From Treponema sp. (GTDB lineage Bacteria; Spirochaetota; Spirochaetia; Treponematales; Breznakiellaceae), in assembly GCA_031256635.1 (NCBI GenBank), contig JAIRQF010000108.1, forward strand, positions 1 to 34,454: 34,454 nucleotides of DNA, read 5' to 3'. This document shows, piece by piece, positions 835-31,400 of this stretch; position 1 is the first letter of the stretch, and each line of letters starts with the position of its first letter. A program made the position numbers and the translations under genes. The notes beneath the pieces are model-generated. The model worked only from the letters and a program-made list of their open reading frames with translations. It searched no databases and was not told where the DNA came from.

Positions 835-2568
835 ATGCCCAAAGAGATAAATAAAGACGAGCTTGACCTGCACTACACCGATGGAGATCCTGACCTTGGA
901 ATCGCGCCTGAGGGCGTAGAATGTAAAAATTTGGACGAAATATCAAAGCGTATCGCCAAAGTTAAAGACACAGTAAAGATTATAAACCTTGATAACCAGC
1001 ACGCATTAACGGAAATACCTTCAGTTTTAGGTAAATGTACAGCGCTGGAAGACCTTAACATTTCTCATACCGATATAAAGGAAATCCCCGACTTTATATT
1101 CAATCTGCCGTCTTTACGCTCCCTCTCCTGCCGCTGCAGCGAGATTCCTGCTTTTCCCTTAGGTCTTTTAAACGCCGGAAAACTTGAATCCCTTTACATA
1201 AGAATGAACAAAGACTGGGTTTTACCGGAGCAGATAACTTCCCTTAAGAGCCTTAAAGTCCTCGCCCTCGACCTTTATTCCGACGCATCTCTTCCCGATA
1301 ATCTTGGCGGGCTTTCCGGCCTTGAAGACCTTGCGATAATGGTAAAATACGATGAACGGACAGTTCCGTCTCTGCCTGAGTCTTTCAAAAATCATTCATC
1401 ATTAAAAAAAATACATATAAACGATCTGTTTTACAAGAACAGAAAAACCTTTGATCTTGAGCAGGCTGCCAAAATTCTCTCCACTTGTCCCGCCCTTGAA
1501 TCGCTTAAGATGTCGGGAGTGGATGTCGGGAAAGGCCATCATAATATATTGCTCCTTACGGGTTTAAAGGAACTTGAGCTTCGGCACTTGATTACCGAAG
1601 GGAAAATCTTTGATTCCATAACAGGGCTTAATAAACTCCAGAGGCTTTGCATTCTTGGAAGCGAATTTAAAATAAAAGAAATTCCCGATATTTTTGCTAA
1701 CATGAAAGCTCTGAATGAGTTTACATTCGCGGGTAACATGGTCATGGATGTTCCTCCATCAATATACACGCTGAGGAATTTAAAAACATTCGAGTTCGGA
1801 TGCACGGCAATTTCGCAGCTTGATAAAAATATCGCCAACCTTCAAAACCTTGAAAATATACATATACATGATAATCTTCTGGAAAGGCTCCCTGAAAATA
1901 TATTCTCGCTTCCAAAACTTAAGCTTTTAAACATAGAAGAAAATATATTCACTCCCGGTTATATCAACGCGGTAAAAACAAAAATAGAATCACTTGCGCA
2001 AAAAGGGCGCAAGATAGAGTTTTTCTATGACAGGCAGGGGCACAGACAGGCGGTAAAGAAGCTTCGCGCCCTAAGGGATATTGATAGAATGGATGTCACT
2101 CAATATGCGAAACTCTGCCTTGGCGCTGTAATTGAGAATCCGTACGCTGTAAAATATATTAATATAGCGAAGTTAAAAGGGAGTCCGCATTACGCGAATA
2201 TCTGCATGGCGGCCGCGGAAAAAACATGCTCGGTTCTTGAAAACATCGTGCCGGAAGCGCTGGGGAAACAAAATTATTTTTCCATCTGCATGGAAGCGGC
2301 AAAATGTCCCGATATCGGCAGTTACTTTAAATTAATAAGGGACGATTTATTGTCATATAATAAATATATACAGGTTTGCATGCAGGCGGCTCTTAGTAAT
2401 AAATCCGCGGATTTTTTAAGCAACTTTAATACCGACGCGTTTCAAAAACGCTACGGCCGCGAAATTTACGAACACATCTGCTGGGCCGCTGTTTTGCATA
2501 ATCCAAGAGCTATTGGCAAGATGATAAGCCCGACAAAGGAAATACATAATATCGCGACCAAACAGTGA
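835..2568 (+). CDS. Leucine-rich repeat protein with C-terminal DUF4116-like helical repeats
   Basis: This 577-residue protein has no signal peptide or membrane segment. Residues about 45-395 are leucine-rich repeats of the type LxxLxxLxIxxxxIxxIPxxI, similar to bacterial LRR proteins that bind other proteins. After a basic stretch (about 395-420) come five copies of a short helical repeat whose signature is Y-x-x-[ILV]-C-x-x-A-[AV], with the Tyr at about 424, 453, 481, 511 and 545. This layout resembles DUF4116-type repeats, although the spacing of 28-34 residues is shorter than I expect for that family. The likely role is protein-protein interaction; the partner is unknown. It begins at ATG 835 without a Shine-Dalgarno. 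The PHP gene follows after 46 nt on the same strand but seems to have its own promoter. Confidence 0.8.
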   Translation: MPKEINKDELDLHYTDGDPDLGIAPEGVECKNLDEISKRIAKVKDTVKIINLDNQHALTEIPSVLGKCTALEDLNISHTDIKEIPDFIFNLPSLRSLSCRCSEIPAFPLGLLNAGKLESLYIRMNKDWVLPEQITSLKSLKVLALDLYSDASLPDNLGGLSGLEDLAIMVKYDERTVPSLPESFKNHSSLKKIHINDLFYKNRKTFDLEQAAKILSTCPALESLKMSGVDVGKGHHNILLLTGLKELELRHLITEGKIFDSITGLNKLQRLCILGSEFKIKEIPDIFANMKALNEFTFAGNMVMDVPPSIYTLRNLKTFEFGCTAISQLDKNIANLQNLENIHIHDNLLERLPENIFSLPKLKLLNIEENIFTPGYINAVKTKIESLAQKGRKIEFFYDRQGHRQAVKKLRALRDIDRMDVTQYAKLCLGAVIENPYAVKYINIAKLKGSPHYANICMAAAEKTCSVLENIVPEALGKQNYFSICMEAAKCPDIGSYFKLIRDDLLSYNKYIQVCMQAALSNKSADFLSNFNTDAFQKRYGREIYEHICWAAVLHNPRAIGKMISPTKEIHNIATKQ

Positions 2569-2601
2569 CGGCTTCCCACTATTCATAAAATCAAATATCA
2601 G

Positions 2602-2607
2602 TATAAT
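2602..2607 (+). promoter_or_regulatory. -10 box for the PHP gene (leaderless start)
   Basis: A perfect TATAAT ends eight bases before the GTG at 2615. With the usual 6-7 nt to the transcription start the message would begin at or one base before the GTG. No good -35 hexamer is visible at 16-18 nt. Confidence 0.45.
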
Positions 2608-2614
2608 AAGCATT

Positions 2615-3442
2615 GTGGCATACCTCTACGAAACACATCTGCATACAACCGGCGTCAGCAAGTGCGCTGTCTCTCTGGGAGCGGAATATATTGCCTCTTA
2701 CATAGATAAAGGCTACTCCGGCATGATAGTAACCGATCACTTTTTCAACGCGAACTGCGCGCTTTCAAGAAAACTTCCGTGGACAGAATGGGTAAATCGT
2801 TTTTGCAGGGGTTATGAAGAAGCGAAGGAAGAAGGCGACCGCCAGGGGTTTGACGTATTTTTCGGCTGGGAAGAAACATTCGACAGCTGTGACGATTATC
2901 TGATTTACGGCCTTGACAAGGCATGGCTGCTTGAACACCCGGAAGTCCGCGGATGGACAAGGGGAGAGCAGTACAGCGCCGTAAGGCAGGCGGGAGGCTG
3001 TGTTGTTCAGGCTCATCCTTTCAGGCAGCGTTTCTACATTCCGCGCATAGTTCTTTCGACAGGCTGCGTAGACGGCGTGGAAGCCGCCAACGGCGGACAT
3101 GAGGATGTTTCTTTTGACGCGCTTGCCTACCGTTACGCGAAAAAACTGGGAAAGCCTGTTACTGCCGGAACAGACATTCACGACGCAAACGCGATTTATT
3201 ACGGCGAAATCTTCGGAGTTTATTCCGATAAAAAACTTAATGACATTTCCGATTATGTTAAAATGATTTTAAATAACGATATAGCCGGTATTAAAGTGAA
3301 TAATGAAATGTTTGACTGTCATAAGGAATCAGAGATACCTGAAAGATTGAAATTTCACGGAACCGAAGGCGTAAGAATCCCTGTGGAAATCCGTGACGAA
3401 GAAGATCGCGTAACGGGAAAACACTGGAAAGACTTTATTTAG
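2615..3442 (+). CDS. PHP-domain metal-dependent phosphoesterase
   Basis: This 275-residue protein belongs to the PHP (polymerase and histidinol phosphatase) superfamily of trinuclear metal hydrolases. Visible metal-ligand motifs are the N-terminal H-L-H near residue 8-10, a V-T-D-H near 40, an E-E-T-F near 89, the A-H-P-F motif near 134, and G-T-D-I-H near 186-190 toward the C-terminus. Proteins of this type hydrolyse phosphomonoesters or phosphodiesters of small molecules; the substrate cannot be read from the sequence. The start is GTG at 2615: it leaves only seven residues before the first metal motif, as is usual. There is no Shine-Dalgarno, and a TATAAT box sits directly upstream, so translation is probably leaderless. 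The gene stands between the LRR gene and the HTH-cupin gene without an obvious functional link. Confidence 0.8.
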   Translation: MAYLYETHLHTTGVSKCAVSLGAEYIASYIDKGYSGMIVTDHFFNANCALSRKLPWTEWVNRFCRGYEEAKEEGDRQGFDVFFGWEETFDSCDDYLIYGLDKAWLLEHPEVRGWTRGEQYSAVRQAGGCVVQAHPFRQRFYIPRIVLSTGCVDGVEAANGGHEDVSFDALAYRYAKKLGKPVTAGTDIHDANAIYYGEIFGVYSDKKLNDISDYVKMILNNDIAGIKVNNEMFDCHKESEIPERLKFHGTEGVRIPVEIRDEEDRVTGKHWKDFI

Positions 3443-21965: not shown

Positions 21966-22006
21966 TTTTTTCTGATAACCTCATCCTAATATTTCGAACA
22001 GGAAAT

Positions 22007-23602
22007 TTATTTCCTAAATATACTTAATATTTTTGATATTAAACCTTTTTTAACGGGAGCCTGTTCTTCCCGTTCCGCGTTTATCATGCCAGGCTTGTTA
22101 TGTGAAGATTGTTTTTCTTCTGTCACCTGCTTCCCGTTTTTAATCTGAGTACCGGCGTATTTCTTTTTATAAAACGCCATTCTCTCTTCAATGGAAAGCA
22201 GCGACAAATCCTGCTCTTTTTCCGTTTTATTTAAAAAGCTGCTTTGCTTTTGTTTACCTGCCTGCTGACCTGAGGCTTGAATCTGCTGTAAAAATTCTTT
22301 CTTTTTCTGTGCGCCTGCGTGTCCCTGCGAAAACCTCTTCTTGATTTTTCCTCCCTGTGAACCGTCTGGCCGAAATTCGCGGGAACTGTTTTTCTCCTGA
22401 TTTCTCCCTGTAAAAAATTCTGTTTTGATATAATGCCCGGCGCTTTTATCTTCCGCGTAGTAATCCTGCGCCGCTATTTCTGAGGCGATTTTTTTTCCGA
22501 TGTAGCGTTCAATTGCGGGTAGCTCATAAACGTCCTGTTCGCTCGCAAGAGATACCGCTTTTCCTGTCTTTCCGGCGCGCGCTGTTCTGCCGATACGGTG
22601 AACATAATTTTCAGCTTCCGAGGGAACGTCGTAATTAATAACCATCGAAAGATTATCGATATCAAGACCGCGGGCCGCTACATCGGTTGCGGCAAGCAGT
22701 TTAATTTTTCCGTTCTTTACGCTGTCAATTATTTTGAGCCGTTTCACCTGCGGTAAATCGCCGATGATAAACTCGCAGGAGTAACCGTTCATTTTAAGGC
22801 GTTTTGCGGTAATCTCTGTTTGTTTTTTTGTGTTGCAGAAAATAATCGCGCTTTGCGGCTGCTCGTTTTTTAAAATTCCGAGCAACAGCTGCATTTTTTT
22901 ATCTGACGGGACATGATAAAGAGTCTGCGTTATTTCTTCGACAGTTACTGTTTCAGGCTTTATCTCAATTTCAACCGGCGGCTTTCCTTCTTTGGAACCT
23001 TTTGTGTATTCCCACGCGAGGTTTTTTACCCATGCGTTCAATGTCGCGCTGAAAAGCATAGTCTGCCTTTTTTCGGCGGGAGGCACTGCTTTAATCAATT
23101 TGCGTAAATCAGGATAGAAACCCATGTCAAACATTCTGTCGGCTTCATCAAGAATTAAAAACGAGATGTCCATCAAGCTCATTTTGCCGGAACTGTTTAA
23201 ATCAAGCACGCGGCCGGGAGTCCCTACAAGAATCTGCGCGTTATCGCGGAGTAATTTCTCCTGCTGCGCGTAACCGACTCCGCCGTAAAAACTCCCCGTC
23301 TTAAAAGGCAGGAAAGCGCCGAGCGTTTTCGCCTCTTCTTCTATTTGAACGGCAAGCTCTCTTGTGGGAGCCATAATAAGCGCTTTTCTTTTAAACAGCG
23401 CGTCTTCTGCGAGCATCCTCTGAAAAATCACGATTAAAAACGCCGCAGTTTTTCCGGTTCCTGTCTGGGACTGAACATATAAATCACTGCCGCCAAACGC
23501 GCTGGACAGTACCTGCTGCTGAACAGGCATGCATGTTTCGTATCCGGCCGCTTTAATGCCTTTATGCAAATCAGGGTGCAGATTAAATTCTGTAAACTTC
23601 AT
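22007..23602 (-). CDS. DEAD-box RNA helicase with basic C-terminal tail
   Basis: The 531-residue protein is an ATP-dependent RNA helicase. The Q motif (Q28), motif I S-Q-T-G-T-G-K-T at 45-52, P-T-R-E-L at 79-83, D-E-A-D at 152-155, S-A-T at 185-187 and H-R-I-G-R-T-A-R near 335 are all present, so the core (1-375) is complete. The tail (about 390-531) is low-complexity, rich in Lys, Gln, Ser and Glu, and probably binds RNA; no DbpA-type RNA-binding domain is seen. The general type is RhlE/RhlB-like, with a likely role in rRNA assembly or mRNA decay at low temperature. No Shine-Dalgarno is seen; an inverted repeat lies just before the ATG. ABC-F follows on the same strand, making a possible translation-related unit. 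Confidence 0.92.
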   Translation of the reverse strand: MKFTEFNLHPDLHKGIKAAGYETCMPVQQQVLSSAFGGSDLYVQSQTGTGKTAAFLIVIFQRMLAEDALFKRKALIMAPTRELAVQIEEEAKTLGAFLPFKTGSFYGGVGYAQQEKLLRDNAQILVGTPGRVLDLNSSGKMSLMDISFLILDEADRMFDMGFYPDLRKLIKAVPPAEKRQTMLFSATLNAWVKNLAWEYTKGSKEGKPPVEIEIKPETVTVEEITQTLYHVPSDKKMQLLLGILKNEQPQSAIIFCNTKKQTEITAKRLKMNGYSCEFIIGDLPQVKRLKIIDSVKNGKIKLLAATDVAARGLDIDNLSMVINYDVPSEAENYVHRIGRTARAGKTGKAVSLASEQDVYELPAIERYIGKKIASEIAAQDYYAEDKSAGHYIKTEFFTGRNQEKNSSREFRPDGSQGGKIKKRFSQGHAGAQKKKEFLQQIQASGQQAGKQKQSSFLNKTEKEQDLSLLSIEERMAFYKKKYAGTQIKNGKQVTEEKQSSHNKPGMINAEREEQAPVKKGLISKILSIFRK

Positions 23603-23604
23603 AT

Positions 23605-23620
23605 AAACTACTGTTAGTTT
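23605..23620 (-). promoter_or_regulatory. Inverted repeat next to the helicase start codon
   Basis: AAACTA and TAGTTT are separated by four bases and end two bases before the helicase ATG. In RNA it forms a 6-bp hairpin at the ribosome landing site; it could also be an operator. No -10 box or Shine-Dalgarno is clear around it. Confidence 0.3.
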
Positions 23621-23659
23621 AATGTTTTTTCTGGGAATGGGGAATAGGGAGGCATTACA

Positions 23660-24283
23660 TTATTTTCTTTCTGCTTTTATGTCATTAAAGGTGTCTATAT
23701 AATAATTCGGGTATTTGCCGTGTGGAAAATTATAGATTGATTTTTTATTTGTACCGTATCGGGATTTTAGGACTTCTTTAAAGCTGTATAATGTTGAAGC
23801 GCCAAGAAAATCATTTGTAATGAAGTATTTTTGCCATAATTGTTCTGTCGCGTATAAAGCGAAACTGCCGCTAAAATGTTCAATTATTGAATAATAATAA
23901 GAACGTATTGCCTGTATTTTTTCTTTGTTTTCCGGAGAATACCATAAAACTTTATTATATATTAATTCCGGCAGTTTAATATGATGAGGTGTAATAACCA
24001 TGTGCATACACATAGGGCCTATTACAACTATTTTATCTTTTAGAAAACCCTGAATATCAGGTATTTGATGAAATGGAAAGGAGAACCATTTATCTATACT
24101 TAATAATTTCGCTAATTTATCGCCTAAATATTTTGATATCAGGTTATCTTCCAATATGCTGTATAACGCATCAGGAATGGGAATTTTATTTAGTTCTTTT
24201 ATTACATAATTTTCGATTACTTCAATAACATTATCTTCAAAGTTAATGTTATGATTACTGAAAAACATCAATTCTGTCCGCAT
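23660..24283 (-). CDS. Hypothetical protein, unrecognised
   Basis: The 207-residue protein has no signal peptide, membrane segment or motif I know. It is rich in Ile, Lys, Phe, Asn and Tyr, and its codons are far more AT-rich than those of the helicase gene next to it, similar to the integrase gene. The C-terminal part has many aromatic residues and a helical appearance. The start ATG 24283 has no Shine-Dalgarno; TATATT ends six bases before it, which again fits a leaderless message, though no -35 box is seen. With the integrase it forms an AT-rich islet between the helicase and tRNA-Pro, probably acquired. It could be cargo of a former integrative element. Confidence 0.65.
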   Translation of the reverse strand: MRTELMFFSNHNINFEDNVIEVIENYVIKELNKIPIPDALYSILEDNLISKYLGDKLAKLLSIDKWFSFPFHQIPDIQGFLKDKIVVIGPMCMHMVITPHHIKLPELIYNKVLWYSPENKEKIQAIRSYYYSIIEHFSGSFALYATEQLWQKYFITNDFLGASTLYSFKEVLKSRYGTNKKSIYNFPHGKYPNYYIDTFNDIKAERK

Positions 24284-24618
24284 ATTAATAATATAATAAA
24301 AACAGGCTGATCAGAGTATAAAAAAAGAAACGGTTATTTATTTGCCTTTCTGCTTGTTTTGAATGCGGTGGAATAATAGAATTATTTGATAACTTCAGTT
24401 ATTAAGCAAGTCCAATAAACATAAGAGGGAAATTCACGAATTTGCCTATCAAAAAACAGGCTTGGATAAAAACCTTGATAAGGTCGAAATCAAAGGAAAA
24501 TAGAATATTTTCTTTTTTTTAAAAAGTGTCAATCATCTTTCAAAATAAAAACTTCTCGAATCCATTATCAATTTCATTAAATGAATCACTGTCCCATCAT
24601 AACATACTCAAAATAGGC
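24284..24618. other. 335-bp AT-rich non-coding spacer with a weak hairpin
   Basis: This spacer between the orphan gene and the integrase has no open frame of convincing length. At 24496-24512 GAAAATA and TATTTTC form a 7-bp stem with a 3-nt loop, followed by eight T residues on the plus strand (24513-24520). It looks like an intrinsic terminator but contains almost no G-C pairs, and no plus-strand gene precedes it. No copy of the tRNA-Pro sequence or other attachment site was seen here. Confidence 0.4.
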
Positions 24619-25926
24619 TCAAACACCCCAGAATTTGTCAATAGCTTTATTATTATCGCTTAAACCCAGGAATTGTTCTTCAAGTTCAGCCATGTTGATT
24701 ATGGTATAGTAATCGGTCATTCTGTTGTTTTCATGACCCATCATATCACTTAATTTATTTATTGATATTTTTCGGCGCATTTTTGTGTTATAAGTGAACC
24801 GCAAACTGTGAGGTGTCAATTTCCTGTCATTCTTCATATCTATTTTTGCATTTATAACCGCTTTTTCAAAACGGTATTCAAGATACTCACGACGAATTAA
24901 CCGTCCTTTAAAGGTGAATAATAAATCTTTTTTTGGATCAATTACCCGTATAGACAGCCAGTGTTTTAAATAGTTCATTGTTTTTTTGGGAATAACCGAT
25001 ACACGCATTTTTGGATCGTCTTCATCGCCTTTCTTTAAATGATTGACAATATCTCCGTTATTCTTGCACATTCTGTCAAGGAGAATTCCATATACAATTT
25101 TTTTCTTTGTTTTGCCAAATGGCTCTGCAATTTCTTTACCGTCACTGCCTACTGCCTTCATTATTCTTTTTCCGTCAGTAGCAATTAACTGAGTATCGCT
25201 TATTGCTCTAACTTCACCACTGCGCATTCCAGTTGACGCTTTTAGAGCAAATAATACGCCAAACATGAAACCATCCTGAGATACTTCGCTTTTTGTATCC
25301 CAGATTTTTGAAAGAGCATCAAAATCATCCGGGAAGAGTTTGTTCAATTCATCCTGCGCTAAAATATCCTTCTTACCCTTTGTTTTTTTATAAGTTTTTA
25401 ATGCAGGTTTATATTTTATCATTTTTAACCAGATAGCCTCATCCAGGATAAAATTGATAATAGAGACAACTCGATTTCGCCATGAATTTGAACGATCCAT
25501 TTTTATTAAATCCTGGTCAACCACAACAGGGTCAATCTCTTCCGGTTTTAAATGACCATAATTTAATAAAATGAAATTATTTAAATATCCATGTATTTCA
25601 TCTATTGTGGAATCGTCTTTTAAATATCCGTTTTCTCTTCGTCTTTTTATATAAGCGTTGTTTTTATGAAACATATTTTCAGCCATTTTTGCTATCGTTG
25701 CAGATTCTTTTTCAGTCCGAATTGCCAGATATTCTCTATCCTTTTCTTCAAGGGTTTCAATGATTGATTCTGCCTCACGTTTGGTAAAAACAGGGTTTTT
25801 ACTGGTTCCGCAGGACTTTCTTATCTGCTTTTTTGTAATAGGGTCGAGGTACCAGAAATAATACGCTTTTATAGGTTTTCCGGCTTTTGTTTCCCCTATT
25901 TTCCGCTGATATAAGTGTCTATTCAT
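24619..25926 (-). CDS. Tyrosine recombinase / phage-type integrase
   Basis: The 435-residue protein is a site-specific recombinase of the tyrosine (lambda Int) family. An N-terminal arm-type region (M-N-R-H-L-Y-Q onward), a core-binding SAM-like domain (about 80-190) and the catalytic domain follow in order. Catalytic residues visible are Arg in T-G-M-R-S-G-E, His and Arg in P-H-S-L-R, the G-H-E motif and the Tyr nucleophile in T-D-Y-Y-T. I chose ATG 25926 because AAAAGGGG lies eight to fifteen bases upstream; a longer frame to 25992 has no such site. The gene is AT-rich. It points away from the tRNA-Pro gene and lies on its 5' side, not at the 3' end where such elements usually insert. No excisionase or phage genes are nearby. 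Confidence 0.88.
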   Translation of the reverse strand: MNRHLYQRKIGETKAGKPIKAYYFWYLDPITKKQIRKSCGTSKNPVFTKREAESIIETLEEKDREYLAIRTEKESATIAKMAENMFHKNNAYIKRRRENGYLKDDSTIDEIHGYLNNFILLNYGHLKPEEIDPVVVDQDLIKMDRSNSWRNRVVSIINFILDEAIWLKMIKYKPALKTYKKTKGKKDILAQDELNKLFPDDFDALSKIWDTKSEVSQDGFMFGVLFALKASTGMRSGEVRAISDTQLIATDGKRIMKAVGSDGKEIAEPFGKTKKKIVYGILLDRMCKNNGDIVNHLKKGDEDDPKMRVSVIPKKTMNYLKHWLSIRVIDPKKDLLFTFKGRLIRREYLEYRFEKAVINAKIDMKNDRKLTPHSLRFTYNTKMRRKISINKLSDMMGHENNRMTDYYTIINMAELEEQFLGLSDNNKAIDKFWGV

Positions 25927-25947
25927 GAAATAATCCCCTTTTTTAAT

Positions 25948-25967
25948 TGTGCATAGAAATGTGCATA
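25948..25967 (-). repeat. Direct repeat upstream of the integrase
   Basis: TGTGCATA occurs at 25948-25955 and again at 25960-25967, 12 bases apart, that is about one helical turn. An inverted repeat ATATGA-AA-TCATAT follows nearby, close to 25981. Both are in the integrase upstream region and could be regulator or recombinase arm-binding sites. Confidence 0.35.
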
Positions 25968-26096
25968 AAATAATATGTTTATATGAAATCATATATCATC
26001 GTATTCAAAATTGGCAAGAGAAAAAATTGAAAATTTAATCAAAAAAATTTGTTAAAGTAACATAACTCTATATTACATAAGGAGTTATATCACTCC

Positions 26097-26126
26097 TTGA
26101 CACTCCATGTCAAAAAAAGGTAAAAT
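26097..26126 (+). promoter_or_regulatory. tRNA-Pro promoter (TTGACA-18-TAAAAT)
   Basis: TTGACA at 26097-26102 and TAAAAT at 26121-26126 are 18 nt apart, and the predicted start lies a few bases before the tRNA 5' end at 26140. The -35 box is the left arm of an inverted repeat TTGACA-CTCCA-TGTCAA (26097-26113). Confidence 0.65.
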
Positions 26127-26139
26127 GACATGAAATTAA

Positions 26140-26212
26140 CGGGCATTAGCGCAGTTGGTAGCGCGCTTGGTTTGGGACCAAGATGTCGCCTGTTCAAGTC
26201 AGGCATGCCCGA
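26140..26212 (+). tRNA. tRNA-Pro (anticodon UGG)
   Basis: A full cloverleaf can be drawn: acceptor CGGGCAT (26140-26146) with ATGCCCG (26205-26211), D stem GCGC/GCGC (26149-26152 and 26161-26164), anticodon stem CTTGG/CCAAG with anticodon TGG at 26173-26175, T stem GCCTG/CAGGC (26188-26192 and 26200-26204) with loop TTCAAGT, and discriminator A at 26212. CCA is not encoded and must be added by the CCA-adding enzyme. UGG can read all or most proline codons. No terminator hairpin follows; a run of A leads to the end of the convergent DUF4130 gene. Confidence 0.95.
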
Positions 26213-26222
26213 AAAAAACGCG

Positions 26223-27011
26223 TTATTTTTCCGGCAGATATTTCCAGTAACGCTGAGGCATTAACTGTCTTTGAAGACCTGGATTATTCCGGTCTTCATT
26301 ATTTATAATCCTGTGATAATGTTTCCACAATTCTTCCCACTCATCATTGTTTGCGGCGCTTTCCATGACGTTTTCACCATTTAAGAAAAAGATTTTTGCT
26401 TTTTCCCCGTTGTGCCGGCGCAGGCATAAGCGCCTTTTTTCATCAATTACCGACCATGAAGTTTCGCCGAATCGTGAGGTAAAATATTCGCTCAATGCAG
26501 GAAGTACGAAATGATCAGGTTCGCATCTTGCGATAAACTCTCCGTTATCATTCGGAGAAAAACGCAAAAGACCCATCATCCTGTCTGTTTCGCGGTATAC
26601 TTTGGCCATGGCGTTAATCACCGCAAGCGTATCCGAATCGAGCCTGTCAGAGGCGGCTTTTTCCGCCGCAGCGCGTTTTTTCTCTGAACTGTCCGCGTTA
26701 ATGGAGGCGGCAATAACTTTTTTTCCGAATGTGATTGTTTCCCTTTCTACAGGTAATTCGCTTAACCACGCGTGCAGAATGTTGTCAAACGCGTTAAATG
26801 ACAATTCAAAAAGATCGCGCATGATTCCGTTTAAAAGAGATACATTAAAGCCCCTTGAAAAATACGAAGTGACAAAATCAATATCCTCCTGTTTATATTT
26901 TCTTTTAAAACATGCTTCTTCATTGGTATTTCCGAAAAGATCACCGCCTGCGCCGTTAATATGTTTACCTTTATTAATTATGGAAAATAGTTCGTATAAA
27001 CCCAACAACAT
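26223..27011 (-). CDS. DUF4130 (TIGR03915-type) presumed DNA metabolism protein
   Basis: This 262-residue protein matches what I know of the DUF4130/TIGR03915 family, always or nearly always found next to a radical SAM protein of the TIGR03916 type, as here. Visible family features are the segment D-R-M-M-G-L-L-R-F (about 145-153), the following C-E-P-D-H-F-V-L-P-A-L block, and the C-terminal L-Q-R-Q-L-M-P-Q-R-Y-W-K-Y-L-P. The biochemical role is not established; the partner's HhH domain suggests DNA binding. The protein starts directly at M-L-L-G-L-Y-E and seems to lack the first strand (usually ending in F-D-G-S-F-E-G) of relatives. A TAA lies in frame two codons upstream, so no extension is possible. 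AAGGAA before ATG 27011 and the 35-nt gap to the radical SAM gene indicate one operon. Confidence 0.75.
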   Translation of the reverse strand: MLLGLYELFSIINKGKHINGAGGDLFGNTNEEACFKRKYKQEDIDFVTSYFSRGFNVSLLNGIMRDLFELSFNAFDNILHAWLSELPVERETITFGKKVIAASINADSSEKKRAAAEKAASDRLDSDTLAVINAMAKVYRETDRMMGLLRFSPNDNGEFIARCEPDHFVLPALSEYFTSRFGETSWSVIDEKRRLCLRRHNGEKAKIFFLNGENVMESAANNDEWEELWKHYHRIINNEDRNNPGLQRQLMPQRYWKYLPEK

Positions 27012-27046
27012 TGATTATTCCTTAAAAGACATATTTAAATGCGTTA

Positions 27047-28408
27047 TCAAAACTCAAAAAGCGGAAGCTGTAATCCCGCGCCGTCAGTATCAGAGAGAAG
27101 GCGGCGAATACGCTCAGGATCATCGGGCCGCTCTATGTATATGCCGCCCGCTGTAAGAAAGTAGCGGGCGCGTTTCAGCGCCGCGCCTATGCGGTGAAGG
27201 TTTTCAATTGTCAGGCTGCGCGAGCGGCGGTTCTCTATTATGCGCCTTGCTGTTTTAGCGCCGATACCGGGAATACGCAGAAGCGTTTCGTAATCGGCGC
27301 GGTTAATTTCTACCGGGAAAAAATCAAGGTTTTTAAGCGCCCATGCTGTTTTAGGATCGATGTGCGCGTCAAGGAAAGGCTGATCTTCACCTAATATTTC
27401 ACCTGCGTTAAAATGATAGAAACGCAAAAGCCAGTCCGCCTGATACAGCCGGTGTTCCCTTACTAAAGGAGGGCCGGCTGTATCAGGAAGGCGGGGGTCT
27501 GTTATCCGCGGTTGAAAAGCATTAACGCGGTTTTCCGCATCCTGAGGAAAACCGCCTGCTGCGTTTTGCATAACAATGTTTTTATGCGCGTAACTTCCCG
27601 GGTGAATAAACGCTGAATAATAAACCCGCTTTAATGAAAACTTATTATATAGAGAGCTGGTTAGATTAATGATTTGCCTGTCGTCTTCGCCTGTCGCTCC
27701 GACAATAAGCTGTGTGCTTTGCCCCGCGGGCGCGAAAAATGGAGAAGAAGTTTTTCCCTGCGGAAGAAATTTGCTTTTTTGACGCGCTTCTTCTGTCTCA
27801 TGTTTAATCTGCGAGAAATCATTCATCGCGCCGATAATGTCTTCTTTTGATTTTTCCGGAGCGAGGCATAATAGGCTTTTTTCTGTCGGTAGTTCTATAT
27901 TGACGCTTAATCTGTCAGCCCATTTTCCCGCTTCGCGGATCATTTTATCCCCGGCGCCGGGAATTAATTTTAGATGGATATAACCGCCGAAACCCATATC
28001 AGTTCTGAGCGTCCTTGCTGTTTCTGTCAGTTTTTCCATTACAATATCGGGGTCGGAGAAAATCCCCGATGATAAAAAAAGCCCTTCGATATAATTTCGC
28101 TTGTAAAACTCGCTCGTTAAATCTGCAAGTTCCTTTACAGTAAAACTGGATCTTTTAATATCAGCGGATGCGCGGTTTACGCAATATGCGCAATCATATC
28201 TGCATACATTGGAATAGAGTACTTTTAAAAGGCTTACGCAGCGGCCGTCTTGAGTCCAACTGTGACAGACTCCCATGGGCAAAGCAGCGCCCAGTTTATT
28301 TCCGCCAGGGTTTTTAAAACCGCCGCTTCCTGAGGTAGCGCAGGAAGCGTCATACTTCGCTGCACCTGAGAGGATGGATATTTTATCATGCAGATCAATA
28401 GCCGCCAT
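27047..28408 (-). CDS. Radical SAM protein, presumed DNA modification/repair (TIGR03916 type)
   Basis: The 453-residue protein has the radical SAM cluster motif C-x3-C-x2-C with C69, C73 and C76 (C-R-Y-D-C-A-Y-C), which binds a 4Fe-4S cluster and SAM. Additional Cys residues at about 23, 48 and 57 could hold another cluster. The C-terminal part (about 365-420) is a helix-hairpin-helix DNA-binding module, with L-R-I-P-G-I-G-A-K-T-A-R-R-I. This combination defines the putative DNA modification/repair radical SAM family paired with DUF4130 proteins. The substrate is unknown. I chose ATG 28408; a TTG two codons earlier (28414) coincides with the predicted transcription start. A strong promoter with a palindrome lies directly upstream, so it probably heads the two-gene operon. 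Confidence 0.85.
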   Translation of the reverse strand: MAAIDLHDKISILSGAAKYDASCATSGSGGFKNPGGNKLGAALPMGVCHSWTQDGRCVSLLKVLYSNVCRYDCAYCVNRASADIKRSSFTVKELADLTSEFYKRNYIEGLFLSSGIFSDPDIVMEKLTETARTLRTDMGFGGYIHLKLIPGAGDKMIREAGKWADRLSVNIELPTEKSLLCLAPEKSKEDIIGAMNDFSQIKHETEEARQKSKFLPQGKTSSPFFAPAGQSTQLIVGATGEDDRQIINLTSSLYNKFSLKRVYYSAFIHPGSYAHKNIVMQNAAGGFPQDAENRVNAFQPRITDPRLPDTAGPPLVREHRLYQADWLLRFYHFNAGEILGEDQPFLDAHIDPKTAWALKNLDFFPVEINRADYETLLRIPGIGAKTARRIIENRRSRSLTIENLHRIGAALKRARYFLTAGGIYIERPDDPERIRRLLSDTDGAGLQLPLFEF

Positions 28409-28419
28409 TATCAATATAT

Positions 28420-28448
28420 ACTATACAATAGTGTAGATATTTTGTCAA
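28420..28448 (-). promoter_or_regulatory. Radical SAM operon promoter (TTGACA-17-TATAGT) with operator-like palindrome
   Basis: TTGACA (28448-28443) and TATAGT (28425-28420) are 17 nt apart on the minus strand. ACTAT-TGT-ATAGT (28432-28420) is a hyphenated palindrome over the -10 box and may bind a repressor. The predicted start lies at 28413-28414, at most a few bases before the ATG at 28408. Confidence 0.65.
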
Positions 28449-28453
28449 GTTAT

Positions 28454-31400
28454 TCAGTTTGTTATTTCAGGGGACTTCAATATTCCCTGGGGCCAGAATT
28501 TATATTCATATGACCATGCGGCTCCTTCCGTACGCCATGAATTGGGCCCCCACCAGAATGAAGGATCCCTTTCTACGCAGTGAAGCTGCCCAAAAGTATT
28601 GATTCTGCTGCCGTAAAAAATAATATCAATCTTGTGCCTGCCTTTTGCGTTACAGGGGATATTCATTTTATAGGGAGAAAAAACCAGCGGTCCCAGTTCT
28701 TTACCGTCCAATTTGATTTTTAATAAATGACCGCGGTAATTTGTTATCTGTATTACAGGTTTATCTCCGGAAATTTCAGTATCCAGATGATAGACAATGT
28801 TGCCGCCATAGAAAGGTAGTCCCTGATTTGTGATGTCGCCGAAGGATAACGCACGCACCGGTTTAATTATTCTGCAGACAGTGCCCGATACATTCACTCC
28901 GAAATCACCTAACAGATACATCGCTTCAGCATCGATCTTGCGTCCGTACGGAAAACTCACTTCCAAAATGTTCGCGCCCTGTTTGATTGCAGGAAGGCTT
29001 ACTTTACCTATGCATTTATCCACGTAAAAGCCGCATGCCGGGCCTGCTTTTTCACCGTTAAGCGTGATACTTGCGTTAGCTGCATTTTCAAGCGCCAGTT
29101 CTGCTCCGTTTAATTGTATTTCACTTTCAAAAGTAAAGCGCAGTTTCAGTGTATGGGGAACGCTTGTATCGTTCTCTACCCACGGCTGAGCGACAGCGTC
29201 ACGGCGGGCAGGCCATTTTAGTTCCGCTCTTAAAATATTATCCAGCCTGAGTATTTCCTCTTTTGGTCTGTAGTCCTGCGAATCCAGCGCGTATTCGGCT
29301 ATGTCAAGTAACAGAACATTCGGCTCTTCAAGCGTTACCGGAACAGTACCTGTAAAGCGGACTACTGGTGTTATGGGATTTTTGTTACCGTCGTTTACAA
29401 TGTTAAAAGATTTCGCAGTGTCGCCTATTTGTTCCGGAGTTCCCTGCGTCATATCGAATTTCTCAAACTTTATAAGCAGGCTGTCATGATCATAAAAAGG
29501 TTGAATAACGCTTGTCATGCCGTTATGCAAATTAACAGGCAGTTTTGTAATTACTCCGTTTATTGTGTTGTAAAGTTTCGCAGACCATTCTCCCCTGATA
29601 TTAATTCTTATATCATCGCCTCCGGGAAGATCCGGATTTTTGGGATTGTATGCGTGAGCGATAAAAAGCCAGCGGCTTCCGTCAGGTTCTTCTTTTAATT
29701 GATACAGAAGATCTTCCGCGAGTGAGCCGCTGCTATAACGGATTTCTATTTCGCGTATATCGTTTACTGCGTTAAGAATATCAAATTTTTCAAAGTTTAC
29801 CTTTTGGGAGACTTCATATAATTTTTTAGCGTTATCGCACTTAAGCCCATCAATGTATTCAGGCGCGTTTCCTGAGAAGATGATTCTTCCCCCGTTTTTG
29901 TTGAATTCTTCAAGGCGCTCAAGAGTTGTCTTTCTCATTGTAATAAGCGGAGGTACGATAACAGTATCGTAATTCATCTCTCCTGCGGGGAAATATTTAT
30001 TGCGGATGTCTTGTGTTTTACACAACTGCGGCAGCGCGGATTCGCAGATATAATCAAAATCGATAAGCCCAAGCAAAAGCCAGTTGCAAAGATTTAAAAA
30101 TTTTTCATCCATCTCTTTTCTTATTAACGCGGTTTTGTCTCCCGGACCCCAATGAAGCCAGAAACTTTCAATTGGATGAATTACCGCGACATGACAGACA
30201 GCCTTACCGTGCGTCATGGCTGAAGCGGTTCGCGCGAAGTGATCTTCAATGTACGGGTATTCTTTGTACCAGGGAGACTGGTAATTAAATGTGCAAGGGT
30301 AATCCCTTTTCGCTTCGCCGTGCATGGAAACCCACGAAAGGTGCGGAACCCTGACAGTGACGCCTAACGCCGCCTGCCAGTCGCCCTGAAGCTTATGTCC
30401 GCGGAAATCAAAGTTCCAGTTTGTAACTCCGTATAATTCAGATAAAACGCCGGGGCTGCCGTTCTGCCTTGCTGCGGACTGAGCCTGTTTCGCGGTTGTA
30501 AACTCGCGCCTGTCGCATAACATATCAATGCCCGGCAGCTGGAAATAATGAAGCGATCTCATGGCTTCACCGACTGTTAAAGTCTGGCTCTCAAGCGTTT
30601 CTTCCCCGTTCATGTGGCCTGTAAGCATGATGTTATTTTGCGCGCACCATTCTCCGCATTGTTTCGCAAAAGACTGCGAGAACAGTTGTGTTATGTGATC
30701 ATGATAACGGTAACGCGCCGCGGAAATACTGCCGCGTGAAAGATTCCATAAAAGTTCAGGCAGCCTGCCTGTAAGGTTTTCGCCATACGCGGCTTTGTAA
30801 GTGTTTTCAATATCAAAAGTCCAGGGTATGGTGACATCTTTTTCTTCATCAAGAGAAAAATTTAAGGTATCCTGTCTTGAAAACTGCGGTTCGTCTGTAA
30901 AGACTGCCGGAACAAGGCTGCCGAAATCTTTCTTAAAACGTTTTTCATAAGCTCCGTATGTTACGTGAATAAATTCCTGTATGCTTTTGGGATCAAGGGT
31001 ATTTACATAGGTTTGATTGTTAAACCAGGGATTACAGGCCGCTGTCTCCTGATACGCGTAAAGTTTAATACCGCAGGCTTTATCATCTTTGTCAATTAAT
31101 TTGTAATTTTCAAGATCGCCGTTTTCATTGAGCGCAATGTCAAAACAGGCGATTAGCTCTCCGCTGCCGCATCTTCCAGCGGTGCCGCGGTTAACGCCTA
31201 TAAAGGTCTGAGACTGAGACTCATATGGTTTGCGCGTTAAAAGAAGGTGGCGCATTCTGTATTTGGGATCTTTTGTAATAAGTCCGCCTGCCGCGCCTGA
31301 AGGCCAGCGGTCCTCATCATAAAGCCATGCGAGCATATTTTCTTTGCGCGCTTTTTCTATACAAGCTCCGGTTATTTCCATATATTCTGAACTTAAATAT

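Follow-up and report, generated by a model that had tools for sequence, protein, structure and literature searches.

A Treponema radical SAM/DUF4130 gene pair with an SOS-type operator and a predicted sliding-clamp-binding tail

Introduction

What does a gene pair made up of a radical S-adenosylmethionine (SAM) protein and a DUF4130 protein do, and when is it called upon? The pair is found in many bacterial phyla, and here we consider the copy on contig JAIRQF010000108.1 of Treponema sp. (GenBank assembly GCA_031256635.1, positions 1 to 34,454, the whole of which is termed the window), in which the radical SAM gene (rSAM) and the DUF4130 gene lie beside an integrase and a tRNA gene. A sequence-only reading of the window had described a two-gene radical SAM/DUF4130 system whose rSAM has extra cysteines and a helix-hairpin-helix (HhH) region, with a consensus promoter of its own and an integrase and tRNA adjoining, and all of this holds. 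Both open reading frames (ORFs) are present (Table 1), the rSAM product scoring 540.4 bits against TIGR03916 (curated cut-off 343.5) and passing the cut-offs of both Radical_SAM and HHH_5 in Pfam, and its partner 140.2 bits against TIGR03915 (cut-off 112.25) and 121.7 bits against Pfam PF13566 (DUF4130; cut-off 27). Three cysteines outside the radical SAM motif are invariant, the promoter lies upstream of rSAM on the minus strand, and a tyrosine integrase in a stretch of 30-34% GC and a tRNA-Pro gene are indeed the neighbours. The same reading gave the pair no established function, which stands for its chemistry but not for its control, SOS regulation of the family being published for other phyla (PMC8565304 and PMC3828012).

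We consider it quite probable that the pair is a LexA-controlled, sliding-clamp-tethered radical SAM DNA-damage enzyme with a DNA-handling partner. The features computed here and used in the argument are the operator and the genes that share it, the clamp motif, the cluster cysteines, the HhH, the partnership with DUF4130 and the fusions of that partner in other bacteria.

A palindromic operator shared with SOS genes

The sequences upstream of the rSAM genes share the palindrome CTAWACAnnTGTATAG, which lies over the -10 element. Among 31 rSAM genes of the order it is found near the start with at most two mismatches in 30, the exception being L025, and across the 127,483 bases of these loci there are 27 sites with at most one mismatch, 26 of them at an rSAM start and the 27th at the promoter of the divergent DUF4130 gene of L004. 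Throughout the 34 kb of the window the rSAM operator is the sole site at two mismatches or fewer. DUF4130 genes that are separated from rSAM mostly have a box of their own: 12 such loci were scanned, L058 (cut by the contig) and L060 (rSAM adjacent) were dropped, and the box is present in 8 of the 10 scored (L037, L049, L051, L052, L054, L056, L059 and L061) and missing from L036 and L046. Second DUF4130 copies also occur in some genomes of the genus (G031:C45, G009:C78 and G023:C203), and the copy in G031 (L128) has its own box.

The genome to which the window belongs, which has a lexA gene, holds two places that match the palindrome with at most one mismatch, namely the rSAM promoter and an operon (L062, positions 1501-3016, from contig C59) in which the box stands 9 nucleotides (nt) before a DUF72 gene that is followed by a Y-family polymerase gene. 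A wider scan took in 59 loci (56 chosen among the matches listed, two around second DUF4130 copies, and L062), the gene families being checked on one representative each. The box precedes the DUF72-polymerase operon at at least 8 of these loci, our genome included, a UmuD-like S24 peptidase gene at at least 4, and each of uvrA, uvrB, methylpurine-DNA glycosylase (MPG), SMC and a helix-turn-helix (HTH)-S24 regulator (at L100) at one or more. More than half of the 59 have no obvious repair gene, most of the loci other than those named look unrelated, and many are likely to be chance matches; the reversed pattern, used as a control, gives 0-3 matches per strand per genome. Because the same box precedes the Y-family polymerase operon, umuD, uvrA and uvrB, we read it as SOS-type, and a LexA box would be its simplest reading. 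An operator that covers the promoter and is held in common with other SOS genes, as would mark a LexA/SOS regulon, is what the sequences contain, and the palindrome can serve as a candidate SOS box in the spirochaete order concerned. DUF72, which comes first behind the box in at least 8 genomes, is itself a candidate SOS gene. A box with at most one mismatch is also found near mraZ, at the head of the division cluster, in at least 5 genomes (L084, L116, L129, L133, L135, site 1501), with a small divergent gene on its other side in 4 of 5; the arrangement might couple cell division with DNA damage, or it may be fortuitous.

SOS boxes at rSAM genes of other phyla

Control of the same gene in other bacteria was followed in 80 named rSAM loci and a further 18 from plasmid and phage records, with L297 (start not set) and L258, L259, L262 and L272 (no N-terminal motif) dropped. 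The boxes used for groups other than Bacteroidota are consensus sequences that we take to be the LexA boxes of those groups. The spirochaete box is present at the rSAM start in 12/12 spirochaete loci and in 0/64 others (4 not scored). In the alphaproteobacteria GAAC-N7-GAAC is found at 13/13 loci, against 0.05 expected after shuffling and 0/409 control windows, and CTGT-N8-ACAG at all three rSAM loci of Caballeronia. The Firmicute box is present with at most two mismatches at 11/14 loci (35/578 control windows) and with at most one at 5/14 (4/578), 4 of the 18 Firmicute loci not being scored. CTAA-N5-TTAG precedes 11 of 39 Bacteroidota genes and is found in 6 of 1794 control windows; another candidate for that phylum, GGA-N5-TCC, was rejected (2/39 loci, 96/1794 control windows). 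Both Fibrobacter loci have a candidate Fibrobacter box with one mismatch, and the Geobacter box has no match at the rSAM loci tested. Because rSAM genes carry the LexA boxes of their own groups, the gene would appear to keep SOS control although the box itself differs between phyla.

Published work already describes SOS regulation of this family in several phyla. COG4277, under which it is described, is presumably the same family as TIGR03916. PMC8565304 reports that a COG1573-COG4277 'UDG base-excision' (uracil-DNA glycosylase) operon is under SOS control in Bacteroidetes, and cites work to the same effect on Verrucomicrobia and Alphaproteobacteria; PMC3828012 places CAC3343-CAC3344 putatively under LexA, and PMC13130816 reports an Acinetobacter homologue that rises on drying. 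The operon of PMC8565304, so far as it is described there, resembles ours in the SOS-type control of what is presumably the same radical SAM gene and differs in that the window's partner is a DUF4130 protein without a glycosylase and its operator a different, spirochaete palindrome.

These findings bear on the alternative that some repressor other than LexA binds the operator, in which case the pair would answer another stress. Operators of the BlaI/MecI/CopY type contain TACAnnTGTA, which lies within the palindrome of many members, and a phage-like repressor of S24 type could be imagined from the HTH-S24 gene at L100; lexA of the genus, without a box, would fit either. Such repressors are unlikely, since the genes that share the box look like an SOS set (Y-family polymerase, umuD, uvrA, uvrB and MPG), lexA does have a near-box at three loci of another family, and the rSAM gene of other phyla carries their LexA boxes.

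A predicted clamp-binding tail

The beta sliding clamp is bound by DinB, UmuC and MutS through a consensus of QL[SD]LF type. The rSAM protein of the window ends in GLQLPLFEF, and QLPLF matches the clamp-binding consensus. A motif of QLxLF type lies within the last 60 residues of 60/78 homologues, where 1.05 would be expected after shuffling, and QLxLF or QLxLxF in 71/78, where 5.5 would be expected (L209, which is cut, and L210, which is fused, were left out), compared with 3/415 of the other ORFs at the same loci and 0/69 of the DUF4130 proteins. In many Bacteroidota the motif forms the very end of the protein (QLSLF, QLTLF), in most Firmicutes it is slightly internal, and its forms in Proteobacteria are QLSLF, QLALF, QLSLL and QLSLGF. 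Q447 is invariant in 61 aligned sequences. In the AlphaFold2 (AF2) model the mean predicted local distance difference test score (pLDDT) is 81.5 and residues 444-453 score under 50, as one would expect of a docking tail that is free. The likeness to UmuC, DinB and MutS thus lies in a QL[SD]LF-type peptide at a flexible C-terminus, whereas those clamp clients are polymerases or mismatch repair proteins and the window protein is a radical SAM protein. We therefore regard rSAM as probably clamp-tethered, a prediction drawn from its sequence. We know of no radical SAM clamp client, nor of any further radical SAM enzyme with a link to the replisome. A literature search that missed most subscription journals found neither a published clamp-binding motif in a radical SAM protein nor a published spirochaete LexA box of this kind. 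The operator over the -10 element and the C-terminal motif had both been overlooked by the sequence-only reading.

The DUF4130 partner

DUF4130 lies downstream of rSAM on the same strand at 69 of the 80 named loci, and at L210 a single 822-aa frame encodes both as a fusion whose linker contains QLSIF. The gene downstream of rSAM in Paracoccus and Caballeronia is a DUF4130-UdgX fusion, scoring 284 and 245 bits respectively against TIGR03914 and 182 and 210 bits against TIGR03915. Base editing makes use of UdgX, whose role in nature is, to our knowledge, unsettled. The fusions carry GEQPG and KRRLH, close to the UdgX hallmarks GEQPG and KRRIH given in PMC10359453. As in the window, their DUF4130 domain immediately follows the same rSAM, and the difference is that the window partner has no UdgX domain; NCBIfam and Pfam profile scans found no UDG domain in it. 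A separate UdgX was sought in the window's genome and rejected, as the sole PF03167 match there has GEGPG and not GEQPG. An earlier prediction, in PMC3765255, makes DUF4130 an enzyme related to mutagenesis and links it with uracil-DNA glycosylases and with radical SAM proteins like SplB. The AF2 model of the window's DUF4130 protein has a pLDDT of 84.5, and a search of solved structures by sequence matched none.

Cysteines and fold of the radical SAM protein

Six cysteines are invariant in 61/61 rSAM sequences, with the spacing C23-x(19-35)-C48-x8-C57-x11-C69-x3-C73-x2-C76. C69, C73 and C76 are those of the radical SAM cluster, and C23, C48 and C57 could hold a second Fe-S cluster, as the three N-terminal cysteines of lipoyl synthase bind an auxiliary [4Fe-4S] cluster. 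A VIA fold search with the rSAM model places lipoyl synthase first (Z 18.5), with HydE at Z 17.4 and RlmN at Z 14.5, the model stretch with C23, C48 and C57 being of low confidence; Foldseek places HydE first, and solved structures searched by sequence give weak HhH and HydE-type matches only. These searches name no reaction. Compared with known TIGR03916 and TIGR03915 pairs the window is alike in scores over the cut-offs, gene order, strand, and cluster and HhH layout, and its rSAM shows no difference in kind from known TIGR03916 members. It does have a lineage-specific insertion of about 30 residues (around 268-303; 27500-27607, minus strand), part of which is of low model confidence; the rSAM of the relative G032 likewise scores in two pieces, and an inverted repeat of 24 nt (27439-27487) lies directly beside the insertion. 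A divergent solo rSAM paralogue in a related genus (L280, L281, L282) keeps the operator; DUF4130 went unmatched in two of the three genomes that have this paralogue, and in L281 and L282 it ends in QELDF/PELDF and has lost cysteines of the first three.

The three-cysteine and CX3CX2C layout, together with the resemblance of the model to lipoyl synthase, HydE and RlmN, whose kind of enzyme has protein, RNA or small substrates, and the tRNA gene beside the pair, would suit an enzyme that acts on RNA, as in damage-induced modification of tRNA or rRNA, or on protein. We hold this to be improbable, for the HhH, the clamp motif, the SOS control and the UdgX fusion point to DNA, and elsewhere in the genus the pair has lost this neighbour, being sited away from the tRNA (L283-L285).

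A third proposal would have the enzyme reverse a UV photoproduct directly, in the manner of SplB, and not process uracil or abasic sites; it was suggested in Aravind 2013 (PMC3765255). SplB, the spore photoproduct lyase (SPL), resembles the proposed rSAM enzyme in its radical SAM chemistry on damaged DNA, and the two differ in that the window protein has no SPL family match at E up to 0.1 and has extra cysteines, an HhH and a predicted clamp tail. The NCBIfam search, in a library that presumably includes the SPL model, gave 10 matches up to that E value, and none is a photoproduct-lyase family. This, the three extra invariant cysteines, the clamp tail and the UdgX-type glycosylase as fused partner all lower the idea, to which we give little credence.

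Distribution of the pair

Within the genus 32 of 36 genomes have an rSAM match and 29 of 36 a DUF4130 match, several of these genomes being incomplete. In the relative G032 (L279) rSAM is 94% and DUF4130 91% identical to those of the window and tRNA-Pro lies 14 nt from DUF4130, and the 15 kb stretch around them has no match to the window's integrase or helicase. The pair is thus core in the genus, and the AT-rich islet is a local insertion beside a resident pair; the direct repeats found within 22000-28500 included no conspicuous copy of the tRNA 3' end. DUF4130 lies directly downstream of rSAM at 11/24 loci of the genus and is otherwise elsewhere in the genome or not found, so that the two genes can part. 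Homologues occur in 158 plasmid records and 10 phage records, and a search of 2.9 million viral contigs found only 2 relatives. One phage record, CAKLQH020000003.1 (L288), titled Acinetobacter phage MD-2021a, is probably a bacterial contig because glyS, glyQ and other host-like genes flank the rSAM pair. A phage gene was thereby rejected, with 2 relatives among the viral contigs and the one phage record examined of the 10 looking bacterial. The idea that an integrative element carries the pair as cargo, or that the two genes form an anti-phage system, which the adjoining integrase and tRNA and the plasmid homologues might suggest, is largely refuted and very improbable, given that the pair is core in the genus, that G032 has it without the integrase, that PADLOC matches neither protein with any family and that viral relatives are so few. 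The accessory role that the sequence-only reading took from the integrase islet falls on the genus-wide occurrence and on the G032 pair with tRNA-Pro and no integrase, and the link to defence that it suggested found no PADLOC match.

A model for the pair

The model that we favour takes the pair to be a core module of this spirochaete group that is induced by DNA damage and deals with it. LexA, the presumed repressor, would bind the palindrome over the -10 element and leave it during the SOS response. The rSAM protein would dock on the beta sliding clamp via its C-terminal QLPLF tail while its HhH domain would hold the DNA, and SAM together with the CX3CX2C cluster, probably with a second Fe-S cluster on C23, C48 and C57, would yield a 5'-deoxyadenosyl radical, whose target may be a damaged nucleotide close to the fork. 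The DNA-handling partner would be DUF4130, and uracil or abasic sites the likely substrate class, because DUF4130 is fused to UdgX in Proteobacteria. A role in DNA repair or modification, which the sequence-only reading had suggested, gains support as damage handling from the SOS-type operator, the HhH, the clamp motif and the UdgX fusion found elsewhere. As a plausible but tentative extension to the whole family, TIGR03916 may be a damage-induced clamp client, equipped with a second Fe-S cluster, that modifies damaged nucleotides at the fork or reverses their damage, while DUF4130 holds the lesion and the UdgX of Proteobacteria caps it covalently. The damage-type operator and the clamp tail turn a vague role in DNA into a testable one and indicate where and when the lesion should be sought.

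Several observations weigh against this model. lexA is without a recognisable box in the genus, a near-box being present in only 3/27 scored lexA loci, all three of one other family, and the recA box is degenerate, as in CTTTACAAACATATAG of the window's genome; at the recA loci of the genus (L184-L192) a degenerate box is present upstream of recA in most, nearly always at the same distance, roughly 354 nt ahead of the codons for Walker A. CTAA-N5-TTAG is absent from 28/39 Bacteroidota loci, and one Acinetobacter locus has neither the alphaproteobacterial nor the E. coli-type nor the Firmicute box. Seven of the 78 homologues have neither form of the clamp motif. About half of the rSAM genes of the genus have no adjacent DUF4130 and some genomes with rSAM have no DUF4130 match at all, so that the partner may be dispensable. 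Finally, the fold of DUF4130 is weakly matched (best Foldseek E 0.067; VIA Z at most 7.1, many rows being DHH/DHHA1), and the DHHA1 likeness is a lead only because these matches are not significant.

The locus and its surroundings

The features of the pair and its two neighbours are collected in Table 1.

Table 1. Coordinates of the rSAM/DUF4130 pair, its control region and adjoining genes in the window
Feature	Position	Strand	Remarks
rSAM gene, TIGR03916	27047..28408	-	453 aa, ATG at 28408; ORF and profile matches
DUF4130/TIGR03915 gene	26223..27011	-	262 aa; ORF and profile matches
Palindromic SOS-type operator CTACACTATTGTATAG	28421..28436	-	overlaps -10
Sigma70-type promoter	28420..28448	-	TTGACA 28448-28443, 17 nt, TATAGT 28425-28420; read from sequence
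QLPLF codons, residues 447-451	27056..27070	-	predicted beta-sliding-clamp-binding motif, low-confidence tail 444-453
CX3CX2C (C69, C73, C76), radical SAM [4Fe-4S] motif	28181..28204	-	
C23, C48, C57, further invariant cysteines	28238..28342	-	candidate ligands of a second Fe-S cluster
HhH DNA-binding region, residues about 366-396	27221..27313	-	Pfam
tRNA-Pro(TGG)	26140..26212	+	neighbour of the pair, outside the system
Tyrosine integrase in AT-rich insert	24619..25992	-	outside the system

Beside the integrase an AT-rich orphan ORF of 207 aa (23660-24283, minus strand) has weak matches of GATase/asparagine-synthase type only.

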